64,000 nucleotides of DNA, from the NCBI RefSeq assembly GCF_000814825.1, contig NZ_CP009302.1:1116001-1180000 (forward strand), in the 5' to 3' direction. Shown piece by piece: positions 33,332 to 45,884 of this stretch; position 1 is the stretch's first letter; every line of letters starts with the position of its first letter. The position numbers and the translations under genes are program-made. The notes under the pieces are model-generated. The model ran no database searches, was not told where the DNA came from, and saw only the letters and a program-made list of their open reading frames with translations. Source of the stretch: Berryella intestinalis. GTDB taxonomy: Bacteria; Actinomycetota; Coriobacteriia; Coriobacteriales; Eggerthellaceae.

Positions 33332-34033
33332 CTAGAAATGCTCCACCATATGCCGCACGACCGACGCGCAGCGGTAGGCGGCCTCTTTCTCGAACGCAGG
33401 GTAATCGACGCGCGCCGATCCGTCCGCCTTGTCCGACACCGCTCGGACGATCACGAACGGCACCCTGCTCAAGGCGCAGGCCTGGGCGATGGCCGCACCC
33501 TCCATCTCGCAGCACAGCCCCCCGAAGGTCCCCGCGATGTCGTTTTTGTCGCCCTCGTCGGCGATGAAGCGGTCGCCTGAGAGGATCCTGCCCTGGAACA
33601 CGCGCACGCCGGGCGCAACCGCGTCCGCCGCCGCCACCGCGCAAGCGCGCAGATGCTCGTCGGCCCGGAAAAACGAGTCGATGGGCATCTGGGGCACCAC
33701 CCCGCGCTCGTATCCGAAGTTCGTGGCGTCCATGTCGTGTTGGACCGCATCGGTCGACACCACCAGATCGCCGATGTCGATAGACGCGTCGAGCGACCCG
33801 GCGATACCCGTGTTGACCACATGCGTGACTTGGAACACGCTGATCAGAACCTGAGCGCACAGAGCCGCGTTCACCTTGCCGATGCCCGAGCGCACCACCA
33901 CGACCTCGGTACCGCCCAGCGCCCCCGCGCAGAACTCGGTCGACATATGATGGCTCACGGAAAGCGAGCTCATGGAGTTCTTCAGCTGCTCGGCTTCGAC
34001 CTCCATGGCGGCGATGATCCCGAATCTCACCAT
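33332..34033 (-). CDS. mtnN: MTA/SAH nucleosidase (Pfs)
   Basis: 233-aa 5'-methylthioadenosine/S-adenosylhomocysteine nucleosidase. It has the family start RFGIIAAMEVEAEQLK with the catalytic acid Glu in AMEVE, VVRSGIGKVNAAL, NTGIAGSLDASIDIGDLVV, the substrate-binding CCEMEGAAIAQA, and catalytic Asp in VRAVSDKAD. It removes adenine from S-adenosylhomocysteine and from 5'-deoxyadenosine, products of the neighbouring methyltransferase and radical-SAM enzymes. It is the second gene of a luxS-mtnN pair (3-base spacing) and is convergent with elp3, 10 bases apart. Confidence 0.94.
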   Translation of the reverse strand: MVRFGIIAAMEVEAEQLKNSMSSLSVSHHMSTEFCAGALGGTEVVVVRSGIGKVNAALCAQVLISVFQVTHVVNTGIAGSLDASIDIGDLVVSTDAVQHDMDATNFGYERGVVPQMPIDSFFRADEHLRACAVAAADAVAPGVRVFQGRILSGDRFIADEGDKNDIAGTFGGLCCEMEGAAIAQACALSRVPFVIVRAVSDKADGSARVDYPAFEKEAAYRCASVVRHMVEHF

Positions 34034-34035
34034 GG

Positions 34036-34530
34036 CTACTCCCCGATCTGCGGGTAGGTCGTGTGCTCCTCGTCAAGCGACGACAGCGTCTTGTCGAAGT
34101 AGTGGCGCGCCCACCATTTCGCCCCCATGAGATCGCTGTCGTGGTAGTTCCCGCACTCCACCGGCGTGGCCCCGGGAACCTCCCCCTCGAAATCGCGCAC
34201 GAACGCGAACATGCCGCGCACCAGGTCGGCCACGTCCGCAGGCGCGTATTCGCCGAACAGCACCAGGTAGAACCCCGTGCGGCAACCCATCGGGCCGAAG
34301 TACACGACCCGGCTTGCCCACGAGGGATCGTTGCGCAGGTAGGTGGCTATCAGATGCTCGATGGCATGCACGGACGCGGTGTCGATGACCGGCTCGCGGT
34401 TCGGCGCCGTCATCCGCAGGTCGAACGTGGTGACCGGGCTGCCGTGCTCGGGATCGCGATCGATCCGCGACACGTACACGCCGGGCTCCAGTCGCAGATG
34501 GTCGATGGTGAAGCTTGCGATGCGCTCCAT
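34036..34530 (-). CDS. luxS: S-ribosylhomocysteine lyase LuxS
   Basis: 164-aa LuxS, which splits S-ribosylhomocysteine into homocysteine and the autoinducer-2 precursor. The metal site is complete: HAIEH (His55, Glu58, His59) and Cys126 in VECGNYHD. The catalytic Cys83 is in GPMGCRTGFY. A GAAGGAGAG ribosome site precedes ATG 34530. A TATACT box on the minus strand at 34580-34575 may be the -10. With mtnN it forms the standard activated-methyl recycling pair. Signalling by AI-2 is possible but nothing local shows it. Confidence 0.95.
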   Translation of the reverse strand: MERIASFTIDHLRLEPGVYVSRIDRDPEHGSPVTTFDLRMTAPNREPVIDTASVHAIEHLIATYLRNDPSWASRVVYFGPMGCRTGFYLVLFGEYAPADVADLVRGMFAFVRDFEGEVPGATPVECGNYHDSDLMGAKWWARHYFDKTLSSLDEEHTTYPQIGE

Positions 34531-38000: not shown

Positions 38001-40499
38001 CTAGAAGGCGGCGAAACGGCGGTGGCGCTGCTCGATGAGCTCGTCGGGAGTCAGAACGGACAGCTCCTCGATCTGCTCGATCAGAAACGAGCGGACCTCG
38101 GCCGCCGCCCTGTCCGGGTCGAGGTGCGCAGGACCCTCCCCCTCCGACAGCACGCGCTCGACAAGGCCCATGCGCGCGACCTCATCGGCGCTCATGCGCA
38201 TCACGGCCGCCGCTTCGGGCGCCCGCGTGCGGTCCTTCCACAGGATCGAGGCGAACCCTTCGGGCGACAGCACCGAGTAGACGGCGTGCTTCTGCATGGC
38301 GACGCGGTTCGAGACGGCCAGGGCAAGCGCCCCGCCCGAGCCGCCTTCGCCGATGAGCACGCTGACCACGGGAACCTTCAGGCCGGCCATGGCCACCAGG
38401 TTCTCGGCGATGGCGTTTCCCTGGCCGCGCATCTCGGCCTCCGCCCCGCAGAAGGCCCCCTGGGTGTCAACCAGGCACACGATGGGACGGCCGAACTTCT
38501 CGGCCTGGCGCATCAGGCGCAGGCTCTTGCGGTAGCCCTCGGGCTGCGGGCACCCGAAGTTGCGCGCCACGCGCTCGCGGACGTCGGCCCCCTTCTCCTG
38601 CGCGATCACCGTGACCGGGCATCCGGCCAACCAGGCCACGCCGCCCACGATGGCCCCGTCGTCGCCGAACATGCGGTCGCCGTGCAGCTCTTGGAAACCG
38701 TCGAAGATGCGCTCGATGTAGCGCATCGCCGTGGGACGGTTCACGTTGCGGGCCAGCTGAACGCTCTCCCACGCCGCGCTCGCATCGGCCGCCGCGGCCT
38801 TCTCGCGGGGAAGCGCGACGCGCTCGGGTGCGTGCCGCTCGCGCTCCGCTCGGGCGCGGGCCCATGCGGTGACGGGAGAGGCCGCGAACCGCATCGCCCC
38901 CACCCCGCGCCCAACCAAACCCGCGATCGAGCCTATGACGCTGCGCACCGTGAGGTCCGCCGCATCCACCACGACCGGGATCCGTCCGTAGGTCACGTAG
39001 TTGAAGGTCCCCTGGCCCGACTCGAGGGCCTGGCACACGCCCTCGTAGCTGACGATGGCCTTGGTGCAGCGCGCACCGCTCCCGTCGACCGCGCCCGGAG
39101 CGACGGAAGCGTCCAGGCAGGAAGCCGCGTGAACGGCCAGGAGGTGGGCCAGGGAGCTGCGCATCCGCTCACGCGGGACCACGGCGTCGATCAGGCCGTG
39201 CTCGAGGGCGAATTCGGCGGTCTGGAACCCTTCGGGCAGCTCCTGGCGTATCGTGTCCTGGATGACGCGCTTGCCGGCGAACCCGATGAGCGCCCGCGGC
39301 TCGGCCACGACGATGTCTCCCTGCAGCGCGAACGACGCGGTCACTCCCCCGGTGGTCGGATCGGTGACGACCGAGATGTAGAGCAGGCGCGCGCGGCTGT
39401 GGCGCTCGACGGCGCACGACACCTTCGCCATCTGCATGAGCGAGACGAGCCCCTCCTGCATGCGGGCTCCGCCCGAAGCGCAGAACACGATCACGGGCAG
39501 GCCCTCTTCGGTCGCGCGGTCGAACGTGCGCGCGACCTTCTCGCCCACGACCGAGCCCATCGATCCCATGAAGAAGGTCGAATCCATCACGGCGAGCGCC
39601 GCCCGTATCCCCGCGATGCTGCCCACCCCGCAGCGAACCGCCTCTTCGAGGCCGGTTTTCGCACGCTGCGCGGCCAACTTGTCCCGATACCCCGGGAAAT
39701 CCAGCGGGTCGGTCTGCTCGACGCCGCAAAACCACTCCTCGAAGCTGCCCATGTCCAGCAAGTCGTCGATGCGCTGCTGGGACGTCATGCGCATCGGGCC
39801 CCCGCAATGCGGGCAGGTGTAGTGGCTCGAGGCAATGCGGACCTCTTCGAACGACAGGCCGCAGTGGGGGCAGGCGCGCCACGACTCGGGCTGGTCGTAG
39901 GTTTTCTCGGTCGAGCACTCGGTCCAGCCCAGAAGCGGGTGGCGCCCGTCGAGCGGAGCGTACACCTTCAAGCCCCGCTGGGCCGCCCTGAACAGGAACA
40001 GATCGACCGATGCGAGGGCTATCGCCTCGCCGCACAGGAAGACCGCCGTGGCCCCGCACGCCTCGGCGGCGGTGAGGACGGCGTGGGCATTGGAGAACAG
40101 CTGGCTGGAGTAACGGTCGCCGATGCACACCGTGCCCTTGGCGAAGCGCAGGTGGGACTGGTTGCCATGATCGGCCGTGAACGGCGCGAACGGGGCCATG
40201 CCCGACGACGCCACGGCCGAGATCACCTCGCGGGCGTCGCGCCCGCGCACCATCACCAGAACCGGGGGGCCGTCGAGTTCGACCGAAGACGCCGAGTGCG
40301 GCCGAGCCTCGACCGACGTGTAGGCGGAAAGGCCCGCCGAGCGCACGGCGTTGGGAGCGGACAGCGCGTCGGGGCAGACCAGCTCCTCGCCGATGCGGTT
40401 GAGGCGGTAGACGACGTCGCAGCCCTTCGCCGCGGGCTCGCCCTTCAATCGCCGGACCCCTCCGTCGGGCGCGTAGGTGACGTAACTGCGTTTGGCCAT
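38001..40499 (-). CDS. accDA: Fused acetyl-CoA carboxylase carboxyltransferase AccD-AccA with biotin-carboxylase-like N-terminal domain
   Basis: 832 aa. AccD (about 205-490) has the zinc finger CPHC-x15-CPHC (Cys210, 213, 229, 232) and carboxyltransferase motifs VFCASGGARMQEGL and VVTDPTTGGVTASFA. AccA (about 560-830) has FQELHGDRMFGDDGAIVGG, VDTQGAFCGAEAEMRGQGNA and LIGEGGSGGALALAVSN. Residues about 78-182 (VLVMVRGRDAREVISAVASS, HLRFAKGTVCIGDRYSSQLF, VLTAAEACGATAV) resemble the N-terminal domain of biotin carboxylase, with the usual NRGEIA and HPGYGFL degraded. It transfers carboxyl from biotin to acetyl-CoA, giving malonyl-CoA. Last gene of the fab operon; accB and accC are not in the window. 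Confidence 0.92.
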   Translation of the reverse strand: MAKRSYVTYAPDGGVRRLKGEPAAKGCDVVYRLNRIGEELVCPDALSAPNAVRSAGLSAYTSVEARPHSASSVELDGPPVLVMVRGRDAREVISAVASSGMAPFAPFTADHGNQSHLRFAKGTVCIGDRYSSQLFSNAHAVLTAAEACGATAVFLCGEAIALASVDLFLFRAAQRGLKVYAPLDGRHPLLGWTECSTEKTYDQPESWRACPHCGLSFEEVRIASSHYTCPHCGGPMRMTSQQRIDDLLDMGSFEEWFCGVEQTDPLDFPGYRDKLAAQRAKTGLEEAVRCGVGSIAGIRAALAVMDSTFFMGSMGSVVGEKVARTFDRATEEGLPVIVFCASGGARMQEGLVSLMQMAKVSCAVERHSRARLLYISVVTDPTTGGVTASFALQGDIVVAEPRALIGFAGKRVIQDTIRQELPEGFQTAEFALEHGLIDAVVPRERMRSSLAHLLAVHAASCLDASVAPGAVDGSGARCTKAIVSYEGVCQALESGQGTFNYVTYGRIPVVVDAADLTVRSVIGSIAGLVGRGVGAMRFAASPVTAWARARAERERHAPERVALPREKAAAADASAAWESVQLARNVNRPTAMRYIERIFDGFQELHGDRMFGDDGAIVGGVAWLAGCPVTVIAQEKGADVRERVARNFGCPQPEGYRKSLRLMRQAEKFGRPIVCLVDTQGAFCGAEAEMRGQGNAIAENLVAMAGLKVPVVSVLIGEGGSGGALALAVSNRVAMQKHAVYSVLSPEGFASILWKDRTRAPEAAAVMRMSADEVARMGLVERVLSEGEGPAHLDPDRAAAEVRSFLIEQIEELSVLTPDELIEQRHRRFAAF

Positions 40500-40527: not shown

Positions 40528-41001
40528 CTATGCCCGCTCGGGCGCAGCAAGCACGTATTTCTGCGTCGCCGTGGCGCACACCTCGCCGTTCACGAGCGCG
40601 GTCGTTTCGGCGACGCACAGGCGCGACGACGACTTCACGATCGTCGCCTCGAGGCGCAGCACGTCGCCCGGAACCACCTGGCGGCGGAACTTCGCCCCGT
40701 CTATCCCCGTGAGGAACCCTATGGCTCCCTGCGAGGAGCGTCCCAGCAGGATGGAGATCGACGCCGCCTGGGCGAGCGCCTCCATGATGATGACGCCGGG
40801 AAGCACCGGATGGGCGGGGAAATGCCCCTGGAACAGCGCGAGGGATTCGTCAACATCGAGCTCGGCGACGATCGACGCGCCCGGGTCGCACGCGACCACG
40901 CGCGATACCCAGAGGAACGGGTCGCGGTGCGGCAGGATCGATTCGATCAGGTCGCGCCCGAAGGGGGGCTCGACGGCCGGGAAAGCGGATTCGGTCTGCA
41001 T
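40528..41001 (-). CDS. fabZ: 3-hydroxyacyl-ACP dehydratase FabZ
   Basis: 157-aa hotdog dehydratase of the elongation cycle. It has the diagnostic ILPHRDPFLWVSRVV, the active-site His in GHFPAHPVLPGVIIMEALAQ (the Glu of MEALAQ is the second catalytic residue) and GIDGAKFRRQVVPGD. It removes water from 3-hydroxyacyl-ACP. It follows fabF by 10 bases and precedes accDA by 29 in the same minus-strand operon. Confidence 0.94.
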   Translation of the reverse strand: MQTESAFPAVEPPFGRDLIESILPHRDPFLWVSRVVACDPGASIVAELDVDESLALFQGHFPAHPVLPGVIIMEALAQAASISILLGRSSQGAIGFLTGIDGAKFRRQVVPGDVLRLEATIVKSSSRLCVAETTALVNGEVCATATQKYVLAAPERA

Positions 41002-41010
41002 ACCCGCCCC

Positions 41011-42300
41011 CTATCGCGCTTCGTACGGGGAGAACGCGAGGCAGGCGTTGTGCCCGCCGAATCCCAGCGAGTTCGACAGGGCCACCTTCTGCCTGACGCC
41101 GCGGATCGCGCTGCCCGCCACCACCGACACCGGGCATTCGGGGTCGGGCTGGGCGTAGCCGGCGGTCGGCGGCACCGTGTCGGAGGCGACCGACAGGGCG
41201 CACACAATGGCCTCGAGGGCGCCGGCGGCTCCCAGGGCATGGCCCACCGTCCCCTTGATCGAGGTCACGGGAACGCTCGAGGCGTCCCCGCCGCACAGGC
41301 TGACGAGCGCGCGCGCCTCGGTCGAATCGTTGGCGAGGGTGCCGGTTCCGTGTGCGTTCAGGTGCCCCAGGTCGTCAGGTGAAAACCCGCCCTCCTCGAG
41401 CGCCATCCTCATCGCGCGCTCGATGGCCTTCCCCTCGGGGTCGGGAGCGGTCATGTGGTAGGCGTCGCCCGTGCATCCGTACCCCGTGATCTCGGCGATG
41501 ACGGTCGCGCCGCGCTCCAGCGCGTGCTCGAGCGACTCGATCACCAAGGCCCCGGCGCCCTCGCCGGCGACGAACCCCGCGCGGCGGGCGTCGAACGGAA
41601 GCGAGGCGGCCCGGGGGTCGGACGATTTCGACAGCGCACCGAGGTTCGAGAAGCCCGCGATGCATATGGGGCTCACAGCCTCTTCGGTTCCGCCGGCAAG
41701 CGCGATGTCGGCATAGCCGTGGCGGATGTCGCGCACGGCGTGCCCGATGCAGTTCGTGCCGGTCGCGCACGCGGTGACGATGTCGAGGCACGAGCCTTTC
41801 ATCCCGTAGCGTATCGCGAGGCTGCCCGCGGCGATGTTGCCGATCATCGTGGGTATGAACAGCGGGCTCACGCGCTTGGGGCCCTTGTCGAACAGCGTTT
41901 CGTACCCGCGCTCCAGCTCGTCGATGCCCCCGATGCCCGTACCGAACGAGACGGCGGCCCGATACGGGTCCTCGGCAGCCATGTCGAGGCCGGCCTGGGC
42001 CATCGCCTCGTCGCAGGCCACCATGGCGTACTGGACGAACCGATCCAGGCGGCGCGCCTCCTTCTTGCTCAGCCCGTGCTCGGTCGCGTCGAACCCGCGC
42101 ACCTCGGCGGCAAGCGACACCTCGTAGCCTTCCGTGTCGAACGACGATATGGGCGCGATGCAGGTACGGCCCGCAGACACGGCGTCCCACAGCGCCGCCG
42201 TGCCCACGCCGGCCGCCGACACCGCCCCGGTTCCGGTTATGACGACGCGACGGGTCCCGTCGGCGCGGCGCAAAGCGCTCTTGTCGATGCCCTCGATCAT
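41011..42300 (-). CDS. fabF: 3-oxoacyl-ACP synthase II FabF
   Basis: 429-aa condensing enzyme. The catalytic triad is visible: Cys in IVTACATGTNCIGHA, His in LNAHGTGTLANDSTE and His in IKGTVGHALGAAGALEA. The terminal SNSLGFGGHNACLAF is the FabF gate loop. It extends acyl-ACP with malonyl-ACP. Its start overlaps the fabG stop by 4 bases (ATGA type), giving coupled translation. Confidence 0.95.
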   Translation of the reverse strand: MIEGIDKSALRRADGTRRVVITGTGAVSAAGVGTAALWDAVSAGRTCIAPISSFDTEGYEVSLAAEVRGFDATEHGLSKKEARRLDRFVQYAMVACDEAMAQAGLDMAAEDPYRAAVSFGTGIGGIDELERGYETLFDKGPKRVSPLFIPTMIGNIAAGSLAIRYGMKGSCLDIVTACATGTNCIGHAVRDIRHGYADIALAGGTEEAVSPICIAGFSNLGALSKSSDPRAASLPFDARRAGFVAGEGAGALVIESLEHALERGATVIAEITGYGCTGDAYHMTAPDPEGKAIERAMRMALEEGGFSPDDLGHLNAHGTGTLANDSTEARALVSLCGGDASSVPVTSIKGTVGHALGAAGALEAIVCALSVASDTVPPTAGYAQPDPECPVSVVAGSAIRGVRQKVALSNSLGFGGHNACLAFSPYEAR

Positions 42301-43064
42301 AGCGACAACCCCCCATCGACGGTCAGCACCTGGCCGGTGATGTAGCCGGCCTCTTCGCTCGCGAGGAACACGACCGCGCGCGCGATGTCGGAGACGTGCC
42401 CGAAGCGGCCGACGGGGATCTCCTTGGCGATCGCCTCTTTCTGGGCGTCGGAAAGGGCGTCGGTCATGTCGGTTTCGATGAAGCCGGGCGCGATCGCGTT
42501 GGCCGTGACGTTGCGCGACGCGAGCTCTTTGGCAAGCGACAGCGTGAGGCCCACCACGCCCGCCTTCGAGGCGGCGTAGTTGGCCTGCCCCGCGTTGCCG
42601 TGCAGCCCCACGACGCTGCTCATCTGGATGAGGCGGCCGTAGCGCTGCTTGGCCATCACCTTGGCGGCCGCCTTGCAGCAGTTGAACGTCCCCTTGAGGT
42701 TCACGTCGATAACCGCGTCGAAGTCCTCTTCCTTCATGCGGGCCACCAGCTTGTCGCGCGTGATGCCCGCGTTGTTCACCACCACGTCGAGCCGCCCGAA
42801 CGCCTCGCAGGCGCGCTCGACGAGCTCGCGGGCCTCGTCGGCGAGCGCCACGTTGGCCGCGACGGCGATCGACCGCACGCCGTAGTCGGCGGCGAGGCTG
42901 TCGGAAAACGCGGTCGCATCCGCCAGGCCCTTATCCGACGAGCAGTTCACGCACACATCGTATCCCGCGCGGGCGAGCTGGACGGCCACCTCGCGCCCGA
43001 TCCCGCGCGCAGAGCCCGTGACCAGCGCGCTGCGCCTCGTCTCGGTCGTTTCGGTATCCACCAT
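42297..43064 (-). CDS. fabG: 3-oxoacyl-ACP reductase FabG
   Basis: 255-aa short-chain dehydrogenase. The NADPH motif is ALVTGSARGIGREVAVQL. The catalytic set is Asn in VVNNAGITRD, Ser in IQMSSVVGLHGNAGQ and Tyr-Lys in NYAASKAGVVG; the family end is GYITGQVLTVDGGLSL. It reduces 3-oxoacyl-ACP. It lies between fabD (30-base gap) and fabF (4-base overlap), with AAAGGAG before ATG 43064. Confidence 0.95.
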   Translation of the reverse strand: MVDTETTETRRSALVTGSARGIGREVAVQLARAGYDVCVNCSSDKGLADATAFSDSLAADYGVRSIAVAANVALADEARELVERACEAFGRLDVVVNNAGITRDKLVARMKEEDFDAVIDVNLKGTFNCCKAAAKVMAKQRYGRLIQMSSVVGLHGNAGQANYAASKAGVVGLTLSLAKELASRNVTANAIAPGFIETDMTDALSDAQKEAIAKEIPVGRFGHVSDIARAVVFLASEEAGYITGQVLTVDGGLSL

Positions 43065-43094: not shown

Positions 43095-44093
43095 CTATCC
43101 GCGTCCCGCAAACGCGCCCTGCGCCGCCAGCGCGAGGCAATCGTCGAACGACGCGCGGTCCTGAACGCACATGCGCGCCGCATCCTTATCGATGCGCCTG
43201 ATCAAACCTGTCAGCACCCCGCCGAAGCCGACCTCGACGTACGAAGACGCCCCCGAGGCGGACAGCAGGTCGATGCTCTGGGAGAACCTCACCGCGCTCA
43301 CCAGATGGCGGGCCAGGTGGTCGCGCACCGTCGAAGCGGACAGCGGACGGGCGTCGACGTTGCAGATCAAGGGCATGCGCGGCTCGCAGAACGCCACGCT
43401 TTCCAGATACGCCGAGAACGGCTCGAGCGCATCGCCCATCAGGGGGCTGTGGAAGGCCCCCGAGGTCGGAAGGCGCGAGAAGCGCCCGCCGCGAGCGGCC
43501 CATGCCTCCTCCGCCCGCCCGATGGCGCCGACCGATCCCGAAACAACGATCTGACCCGGGCAGTTGAAGTTAGCCGCGACCAGAACCTCGCCCTGCGCGC
43601 ACTGCGATACGAGGGCCTCGACCGCGTCCTCGTCGGCTTTCAGGAGCGCCGACATGGCGCCGGGGTTCGCGTCGGCCGCCTCTCCCATGAGCCGCGCGCG
43701 CACCGATGCGAGGGACAGCGCCTGCTCGTCGGTGAGCATGTCGGAAAGCGCCAGCGCCGAAACCTGCCCGAGCGAAAACCCCACGAGCGCCGAGGGCTCG
43801 ACGCCGCGGGACCGCAGCGCGCGCCCGACCGCAATCGACAGCGTCGCGATCGCCGCCTGGGCACTGCGCGTGTCGTTCAGCGCCGACGGATCCCCCTGCG
43901 CAGAGCACAGGGCCGCCACATCGAGGCCAAACACGTCGGAGGCGCACTCGAATACGACTGCGACCTCGGGAATGTCCATCAGATCCGCGCCCATGCCGGG
44001 GCGCTGGGAACCCTGTCCCGAGCATGCGAAGACCGGGCCCGCCGCCAACCGAAGGGGTTCACATGCGGGTTGTACTGCTTGATTGGATGTCAT
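43095..44093 (-). CDS. fabD: Malonyl-CoA:ACP transacylase FabD
   Basis: 332-aa acyltransferase that loads malonate onto ACP. It has ACSGQGSQRPGMG near the N-terminus, the nucleophile Ser in LVGFSLGQVSALAL, the substrate Arg in LASVRARLMGEAA and catalytic His in GAFHSPLMGDALEPF. The nucleophile motif is GFSLGQ instead of the usual GHSLGE, keeping the serine but changing both flanking residues. It follows fabK by 15 bases on the minus strand. Confidence 0.92.
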   Translation of the reverse strand: MTSNQAVQPACEPLRLAAGPVFACSGQGSQRPGMGADLMDIPEVAVVFECASDVFGLDVAALCSAQGDPSALNDTRSAQAAIATLSIAVGRALRSRGVEPSALVGFSLGQVSALALSDMLTDEQALSLASVRARLMGEAADANPGAMSALLKADEDAVEALVSQCAQGEVLVAANFNCPGQIVVSGSVGAIGRAEEAWAARGGRFSRLPTSGAFHSPLMGDALEPFSAYLESVAFCEPRMPLICNVDARPLSASTVRDHLARHLVSAVRFSQSIDLLSASGASSYVEVGFGGVLTGLIRRIDKDAARMCVQDRASFDDCLALAAQGAFAGRG

Positions 44094-44108: not shown

Positions 44109-45077
44109 CTAGGTTAGCTGCGCCCTTTCCGCATTCAGCGCAGCGAGCGCCTCGAGGTGCCCTCCTCCCAGCCTCCGAGCCTCGTCGACCATGCGGTCCA
44201 CGACCTCTGCGGCCGATCCGCACTCGGAAACCAATCCGGCCACCTGGCCCGCCATAACCGATCCCCCGTCGACGTCGCCTTCGACGGCGCGCTTGAGCGA
44301 GCCCACGTAGAGCCCCTCGAGCTCGTCTGCGCACGAGGCGTCGAGCTCGAGTTGGCGGACGCGGCGCGAGAAGCGGTTCTTCAGGCAGCGGACGGGATGG
44401 CCCGATCCGCGGCCGGTGACGATGGTGTCGGAATCCTTCGCATCGAGGACGCGCTGCTTGTACGCGTCGTCCACCGAGCATTCGCTTACCGTGAGGAAGC
44501 GCGTGCCCACCTGGACGCCCTCGGCCCCCAGCGCGAACGCCGCCAGCATGCCGCGCCCGTCGGCGATGCCGCCCGCCCCGATCACGGGGATGGACACGGC
44601 TCGCACGACCGAGGGGATGAGCGCCATCGTGGTCAGCTCGCCCACATGGCCGCCCGCCTCGGTGCCTTCGGCGACCACCGCATCGGCGCCGAGGCGCTCC
44701 ATGCGGCGGGCAAGCGCCGCGGAGGCGACGACGGGGACCACCTTGATGCCCGCTTCCTTCCACATGCCCATGAAGGCCGACGGGCTTCCCGCACCCGTGG
44801 TCACCACGTCGATGCGCAGGTCGCACAGAAGCCGCGCGAGTTCGGCGGCGTTGGGATCCATCAGCATGACGTTGGCGCCCAGGGGCTTCGACGTCTTCTC
44901 GCGAGCCAGCCCGACCTGCTGAGCGACCCATTCGAGGGGCGCGCCCCCGCACGCGATGATGCCCAGGCCGCCGGCTTCGCTGACCGCAGCGGCGAGGCTC
45001 GCATCGGCGATGCGGGCCATGGCCCCCTGCACGACGGGCTTCTCGATCCCCAGGATGTCGGTAACGCGCGTCCTCAT
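44109..45077 (-). CDS. fabK: Enoyl-ACP reductase FabK
   Basis: 322-aa FMN-dependent enoyl-ACP reductase of the nitronate-monooxygenase-like TIM-barrel family. It has VTDILGIEKPVVQGAMARIA, AAVSEAGGLGIIACGG, VVAEGTEAGGHVGELTTMAL, PVIGAGGIADGRGMLAAFAL and GVQVGTRFLTVSEC. It carries out the final reduction of each elongation round in place of FabI. Position right after the acyl carrier protein gene supports FabK over a 2-nitropropane dioxygenase role. This is the same layout as low-GC Gram-positive fab operons. Confidence 0.93.
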   Translation of the reverse strand: MRTRVTDILGIEKPVVQGAMARIADASLAAAVSEAGGLGIIACGGAPLEWVAQQVGLAREKTSKPLGANVMLMDPNAAELARLLCDLRIDVVTTGAGSPSAFMGMWKEAGIKVVPVVASAALARRMERLGADAVVAEGTEAGGHVGELTTMALIPSVVRAVSIPVIGAGGIADGRGMLAAFALGAEGVQVGTRFLTVSECSVDDAYKQRVLDAKDSDTIVTGRGSGHPVRCLKNRFSRRVRQLELDASCADELEGLYVGSLKRAVEGDVDGGSVMAGQVAGLVSECGSAAEVVDRMVDEARRLGGGHLEALAALNAERAQLT

Positions 45078-45089
45078 GCGACCGACCGC

Positions 45090-45308
45090 TTACAGGGAGT
45101 CGATGTAGGAAACCATGTCGCCGATGGTTTCGATGCCCTCGGGCTCGCCGAACTCGATGTCGAGCTTCTCTTCGATGTCGCAGATGAGCTCGACCATGTC
45201 CAGCGAGTCGATGCCCAGCGAGTCGAGCGTCGCGTCGGCGGTGACGGCCGCCTCGTCGATGTCGAGGTTCTCGGCGAGGGTGGACTTGATGACGTCGAGG
45301 GTTGCCAT
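45090..45308 (-). CDS. acpP: Acyl carrier protein
   Basis: 72-aa acidic ACP. The phosphopantetheine attachment Ser is in LGIDSLDMVELICDIEEKLD; the N-terminal MATLDVIKSTLAENLDID is typical. It is the first gene of the minus-strand fab operon. GAAAGG lies before ATG 45308, and a promoter and FabT-like operator sit directly upstream (45338-45388). Confidence 0.96.
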   Translation of the reverse strand: MATLDVIKSTLAENLDIDEAAVTADATLDSLGIDSLDMVELICDIEEKLDIEFGEPEGIETIGDMVSYIDSL

Positions 45309-45422: not shown

Positions 45423-45884
45423 CTACGCGCGGGAGTCGAAGAACTCCTTCAGCTTGCTCAGCGCTTCTGCCAGCACCTTCGCCTCCCGATCGTCCAGCTC
45501 GGACAGCGCGGCCGAAAGCATCTCCTCGTGGAAGATGCGATGCGCGCGATAGACCTTGCGCCCGCGCGCCGTGAGCGAGAGCAGCACCTTGCGCCGATCG
45601 GCCTCGTCGCGCTCGCGCCGCACGAAGCCCTGGGCCTCCAGCTTCTTCACCGCCGACGTGAGCGTGGCCAGCGTGATGCCCAGCCGGTTCGCGGCGACGT
45701 TCATGGGGTTGCGCTCGTACATGCCCACCGCCACGATCGTATGGACGTCGGTGATGGACAGCCCCTCGGTGAAGCGGTTCTGAAGGGCCTGCTCTTCGAC
45801 GCGCAGGATCGAATTGAAGGTCCCCGACAAAAGCTCGTCCAAGTCGAGGTTCCGATCGAGCAGATGCTGGTAGTTCTCGGACAC
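45423..45884 (-). CDS. fabT: MarR-family regulator, FabT-like
   Basis: 153-aa winged-helix MarR protein. It has the core LSITDVHTIVAVGMYERNPM, recognition region LGITLATLTSAVKKLEAQGF and wing VRRERDEADRRKVLLSLTARGRKV (wing spans about residues 87-110). GTG 45884 follows GGGAGGG. Its position between fabH and the acpP-fabK-fabD operon mirrors FabT in streptococci and lactococci, where acyl-ACP-bound FabT represses fatty-acid genes. Two matching palindromes lie on either side of the gene. Regulation by acyl-ACP is inferred. Confidence 0.85.
   Translation of the reverse strand: MSENYQHLLDRNLDLDELLSGTFNSILRVEEQALQNRFTEGLSITDVHTIVAVGMYERNPMNVAANRLGITLATLTSAVKKLEAQGFVRRERDEADRRKVLLSLTARGRKVYRAHRIFHEEMLSAALSELDDREAKVLAEALSKLKEFFDSRA

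Follow-up and report, generated by a model that had tools for sequence, protein, structure and literature searches.

The window analysed here is a stretch of 64,000 nucleotides from Berryella intestinalis (contig NZ_CP009302.1, positions 1,116,001 to 1,180,000). It carries a fatty acid synthesis operon with the gene order marR-acpP-fabK-fabD-fabG-fabF-fabZ-accDA, all of it on the minus strand. The operon is headed by a MarR-family regulator (45423..45884; Pfam MarR and conserved order), followed by acpP (45090..45308), fabK (44109..45077), fabD (43095..44093) and fabG (42297..43064), which were assigned from their open reading frames and conserved order. The next two genes, fabF (41011..42300) and fabZ (40528..41001), were placed by synteny; in sister families, accB separates fabF from fabZ and accC separates fabZ from accDA. 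The accDA gene (38001..40499) is the last of the operon and starts 28 bases 3' of fabZ. In Raoultibacter timonensis (L078), the annotation suggests a second FabF/FabZ/N-domain/AccA set near the first fab operon. Elsewhere in the window, a candidate nucleosidase of the MTA/SAH type, recognized by eye, lies at 33332-34530 (minus strand) and adjoins a LuxS-like gene.

The accDA gene is a single uninterrupted frame that encodes 832 amino acids from an ATG at 40499 (minus strand), preceded by a ribosome-binding-like stretch (GAGGAGGG). The open frame and matches to Pfam and NCBIfam models identify its product as an AccD-AccA fusion carrying an N-terminal domain similar to biotin carboxylase (BC); the matched spans are residues 80-154 for the BC N-domain model (PF00289), 196-458 for AccD and 575-831 for AccA. 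The AccD half of the carboxyltransferase (CT; residues 206-460; 39120..39884) scores 328.7 bits against TIGR00515 (equivalog cut-off 317.45), and the AccA half (residues 573-832; 38004..38783) scores 365.2 bits against NF004344 (equivalog cut-off 357). The AccD half includes a zinc ribbon (39804..39872) whose cysteines 210, 213, 229 and 232 are invariant in 24 relatives, as are the glycine-rich motifs of both halves, so that the carboxyltransferase looks functional. The two halves are joined by a variable linker (residues 461-572; 38784..39119) of low pLDDT, with a dN/dS raised in most pairs of relatives. As the frame is open and both catalytic motifs and selection are intact, a pseudogene was considered and dropped.

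Three segments precede the AccD half. The N-terminal extension (residues 1-76; 40272..40499), delimited from the alignment and the full-length AlphaFold model, is largely disordered and variable (dN/dS mostly 0.1-0.36) and contains two conserved motifs, Y-[IV]-T...G and V-x-Y-x-L-x-x-I-x-E. The second is predicted to form a short helix (residues 33-41 of the full-length model; pLDDT 84 for the block 31-40), and these short motifs are possible candidates for docking peptides. The BC-N-like domain follows (residues 77-183; 39951..40271), delimited by PF00289, a profile compared with the PDB, AlphaFold, Foldseek and VIA. In its joint alignment with AccC proteins, the sequence FLCGEA (residues 154-159; 40023..40040) replaces the BC active-site loop HPGYGF. 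A connector (residues 184-205; 39885..39950), defined from the alignment and the model, then leads to AccD and shows a conserved GW..C and one added strand.

The original prediction, made by eye, had placed a degenerate BC-like domain at the N-terminus of AccDA, and both sequence profiles and structure bear it out. PF00289 (Biotin_carb_N) matches residues 80-154 with 28.7 bits in the full protein, above the gathering score of 25.5, and the isolated region with 32.0 bits (E=1.9e-7). The blocks that align to this model are the very ones that had been matched by eye (RG, VCIG and AAE..GA.A). When a profile built from 18 relatives was compared with the PDB, solved BCs were matched first (E=4.7e-11), across the length of the N-domain. 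The real sequence scores 31.4 bits against the BC-N model and the best of 2000 shuffled sequences only 11.0, which excludes chance similarity; no other part of AccDA scores against this model. An AlphaFold2 model of residues 70-208, computed with 31 relatives, is confident (pLDDT 91.4, pTM 0.87) and adopts the pre-ATP-grasp Rossmann-like fold, the matches listed by Foldseek and VIA being all biotin-dependent carboxylases. The best 50 VIA matches have Z scores of 12.5-13.6 and rmsd of 2.0-3.5 over 107-119 residues. The fold runs to about residue 183, beyond the PF00289 match, so that the entire N-domain is present, and the VIA alignment sets the strand of the connector (residues 123-125 of the model) on BC residues about 312-317, possibly a surviving stub of the BC C-domain. 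The pre-domain of another ATP-grasp family was also considered and dropped, as the top matches in both sequence and fold are all biotin-dependent carboxylases. Residues ~77-183 of AccDA are thus homologous to the BC N-domain.

The rest of a BC is missing, as had been predicted. Neither PF02786 (ATP-grasp) nor PF02785 (Biotin_carb_C) matches the full AccDA protein at E<=10, and no carrier domain (Biotin_lipoyl) was detected in the chain. AccDA therefore consists of BC-N and CT only and is not a single-chain acetyl-CoA carboxylase (ACC), which would combine a complete BC, a carrier and a CT. The erosion of key active-site motifs, proposed from the same reading, is also found in a joint alignment of 40 relatives of the domain and 61 true AccC N-domains. 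In the HPGYGF loop, H79 and P80 are kept in none of the 40 relatives and G83 in 3%, unlike what is expected of a functional AccC; in the NRGE motif, N9 is kept in none, E12 in 5%, and R10 and G11 in 55-62%. The scaffold is largely retained, with L6, G25 and F91 kept in 100% of the 40 relatives, G52 in 95%, A75 in 93% and A14 in 90%. Judging from these residues, the domain is catalytically dead. R19, a position of the BC dimer interface named as a BC-dimer mutant (PMC5059739), is kept in 12% of relatives. Over long times the domain has diverged far more than AccC, the stem leading to it in the N-domain tree amounting to 2.4 changes per site. The loss of R19 in most relatives and an evolution far faster than that of true AccC N-domains do not favour a simple mimic of the BC dimer.

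A survey of AccDA N-termini in 197 Coriobacteriia genomes, called for by the original prediction, indicates that the domain is a trait of Eggerthellaceae (family f1) with few outliers (f4 g47 and f3 g38); among the matches listed, the other AccD proteins of Coriobacteriia start near the zinc ribbon. In a scan of 84,980 genomes, the domain was found in Eggerthellaceae records (Gordonibacter, Eggerthella, Paraeggerthella, Adlercreutzia, Slackia, Senegalimassilia, Raoultibacter and others), while matches in Lachnospiraceae, Collinsella and Olsenella were limited to the AccD part. A tree of AccD plus AccA, obtained by a short search, sets the domain-bearing proteins apart by one branch (SH-aLRT 100), their neighbours being the domain-free AccDA of Coriobacteriaceae and Atopobiaceae. 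The domain-bearing AccDA thus form one derived clade, probably of single origin. The outlying proteins, from other families of Coriobacteriia (L042, L032 [G116, G187] and L043 [G001]), nest within the Eggerthellaceae clade, which suggests horizontal transfer.

Among 60 sampled Eggerthellaceae genomes, 33 have a domain-bearing AccDA, and the domain is present in every sampled genome having this type of AccDA (33/33). For 14 pairs of relatives (Nei-Gojobori method), the dN/dS of the domain ranges from 0.00 to 0.24 (mostly 0.01-0.15), close to the values of the catalytic AccD (0.01-0.14) and AccA (0.00-0.17); the linker between AccD and AccA and the N-terminal extension tend to give higher values than the domain. 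The domain is therefore under constraint and not decaying.

The gene order around accDA suggests where the domain came from. The operons of sister families have the order fabF-accB-fabZ-accC-accD(A) (6/6), whereas every Eggerthellaceae operon with a readable upstream context reads fabF-fabZ-[domain]accDA, without accB and accC (35/35, not counting one further contig that is too short to judge). Two Eggerthellaceae genomes (G146 and G205) have a domain-free AccDA and retain accB and accC alongside. The domain stands where the sister operons have accC and most likely represents what survives of the beginning of that gene. According to this scenario, the fab operon of the ancestor of Eggerthellaceae would have lost accB and, from accC, the regions encoding the ATP-grasp and C-terminal domains, and the remaining first third of accC would have been joined in place to the AccDA reading frame. 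Alternatively, part of a different accC, such as the one linked to pxp genes, would have been copied and inserted upstream of accD, its position being a coincidence. The domain profile does score slightly higher against the N-domains of Pxp-type AccC (mean of 50.7 bits) than against those of the fab-operon AccC of sister families (44.5 bits), but this gap is small, the N-domain tree, with its long stem and few columns, leaves the donor ambiguous and points to no source, and all operons with a readable context have the domain between fabZ and accD, the position of the lost accC, which makes such an insertion less likely. The original prediction had proposed that the domain could be a remnant of an ancestral single-chain carboxylase. 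BC and CT pieces do lie on one chain, as in AccADCB (PDB 9kkm), but the chain has no carrier domain, sister and outgroup operons have separate and complete accB and accC with a domain-free accD(A), and the domain-bearing proteins constitute one derived clade; gene order and phylogeny thus contradict this proposal, to which we give almost no credence. An in-place origin from the accC of the fab operon therefore stays the most likely reading of the gene orders.

The genome that contains the window has two intact accC genes, one 3' of pxpC-accB and one 3' of a gene encoding a protein of 630 aa, and both contexts recur across Eggerthellaceae. The 630-aa protein, PycB::AccB (G000:C1:1877052-1878941, minus strand; L188:9053-10942), is a fusion of PycB/OadA with a complete AccB: its C-terminal 150 residues score 158 bits against TIGR00531 (AccB equivalog, cut-off 115.2) over positions 1-155 of 156. 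Six relatives score 134.6-166.9 bits against the same model, so that all seven proteins exceed 115.2 at full or nearly full length. The carrier also has a thumb segment (APAPGEP and variants), a feature reported to be specific to enzymes that form malonyl-CoA (PMC10863985). The locus has the order efp-[PycB::AccB]-accC-asp23-nusB-xseB-dxs, an arrangement shared by the examined Eggerthellaceae loci and by the f4 and f3 g38 genomes. In Bacillus subtilis, the order is accB-accC-yqhY, where yqhY belongs to the asp23 family and mutations in every ACC subunit are selected when it is lost (PMC5437119); PycB::AccB thus occupies the place expected for accB.

A carrier protein of the size of PycB::AccB was found in 32 of the 33 genomes with a domain-bearing AccDA (the identity of the PycB fusion being checked in the examined loci). 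In 17 of these 33 genomes, it was the only full-length AccB detected; two of them, both Adlercreutzia, have an additional stand-alone biotinyl domain of 74 aa (G036:C1:2555949-2556131 and G052:C14:73617-73799). The genome of the window retains a second, stand-alone AccB beside its Pxp-linked AccC, this accB-accC pair lying directly 3' of pxpC, which encodes a 5-oxoprolinase subunit (L189; G000:C1:1543000-1557000). In the remaining one of the 33 genomes (G124; L005), the domain-bearing AccDA is present but no AccC above the cut-off and no full biotinyl domain were found; as its assembly is fragmented (180 contigs), these subunits probably correspond to missing sequence. Since no other full-length AccB was found in the 17 genomes, AccDA must there accept carboxybiotin from the PycB-attached carrier, unless a carrier was missed. 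AccDA would therefore share a carrier/AccC unit with pyruvate carboxylase.

Taken as a whole, these data can be viewed as follows, a reading to which we give a probability slightly better than even (about 0.55): the dead N-terminal third of a BC, left in the fab operon, would have been retained by selection as a non-catalytic adaptor. Having no dedicated AccB and AccC alongside, AccDA would take its carboxybiotin from an AccC whose carrier is often PycB::AccB, and AccDA would be kept beside this AccC by the BC-like domain, perhaps aided by the conserved helix of the N-terminal extension. Published modelling predicts that an AccC-AccD contact keeps the halves of Escherichia coli ACC together (PMC10863985); a BC-derived domain on AccD may strengthen or replace this contact when AccC is shared with PycB. 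Such a docking to AccC, the leading idea for this putative adaptor, is plausible and consistent with purifying selection and with intact AccC encoded elsewhere in the genome. An unlinked accC alone does not require the domain, as three other groups of Coriobacteriia (f5, f8 and f10) have AccD/AccA without a neighbouring accC and without the domain, and the stand-alone AccB in the window's own genome also speaks against this reading. In a more elaborate version, which we regard as unlikely, AccC would charge the PycB-fused AccB for both the pyruvate carboxyltransferase and AccDA within one merged ACC/pyruvate carboxylase assembly, AccDA being held in it by the dead BC domain.

Other roles would involve no partner. 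The domain might serve AccDA itself, structurally or as a regulator: as a Rossmann-like module, it would stabilize the CT or sense a ligand and would not bind AccC. The confident fold of the domain alone, a selection comparable with that of the catalytic core and the conserved connector strand (GW..C) that ties it to AccD would all fit such a role, but no ligand-binding motif conserved throughout the family was seen, the AccDA of sister families work without the domain, and its BC ancestry would make a role related to AccC more natural; we consider an internal module rather unlikely. It is far less probable still that the domain is a functionless relic, simply tolerated. The loss of active-site residues, the fast divergence from AccC and the very low scores of a few sub-lineages (Adlercreutzia) against the BC model could be read in this way, but dN/dS values of about 0.01-0.15 in most pairs, similar to those of AccD and AccA, largely refute it, and the high-confidence fold and the presence of the domain in all 33 genomes with this type of AccDA also speak against it. 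The adaptor thus remains the preferred reading.

The domain shares with the N-terminal domain of AccC (PF00289) its fold, its order of strands and helices and the scaffold residues L6, A14, G25, G52, A75 and F91; it differs from AccC by the absence of the ATP-grasp and C-terminal domains, of HPGYGF and of N9/E12, and by its fusion to AccD. The AccDA of Coriobacteriaceae and Atopobiaceae, the closest relatives of the domain-bearing AccDA in the tree, are likewise AccD-AccA fusions encoded in a fab operon but have no N-terminal domain, and their operons include their own accB and accC. PycB::AccB followed by AccC resembles the two-subunit pyruvate carboxylase, made of a BC subunit and a CT-carrier subunit (PMC5059739). 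Unlike in that enzyme, a full AccB, including the N-terminal segment and thumb, makes up the carrier half, and a second carboxyltransferase, AccDA, probably uses this carrier. The BADC proteins of plant ACC are also non-catalytic relatives of a carboxylase subunit that aid assembly (PMC11926652), a functional analogy only, as they resemble the carrier and not BC and are separate proteins. In Chloroflexus, the heteromeric ACC is rearranged by a BC-BCCP fusion, BC1, that promotes the association of BC with CT (PMC11077971). However, the BC of this fusion is complete and active and its partner is the carrier. No paper on the BC-like domain of AccDA or on the PycB::AccB fusion was found in the literature searched.

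Through ACC, carbon is committed to fatty acid synthesis, and the enzyme is a target for antibacterials. To our knowledge, it is not well established how the BC and CT halves of multi-subunit bacterial ACC meet. A CT bearing a conserved but non-catalytic BC domain, together with a PycB-fused carrier, provides a natural test case for this contact. If the merged assembly exists, transfer of the carboxyl group from oxaloacetate to acetyl-CoA without ATP would be possible, and the supply of malonyl-CoA would track the pool of C4 acids. Across this whole family of gut inhabitants (Eggerthella, Gordonibacter, Adlercreutzia and Slackia), these features suggest that lipid synthesis may be coupled to the metabolism of pyruvate and oxaloacetate.
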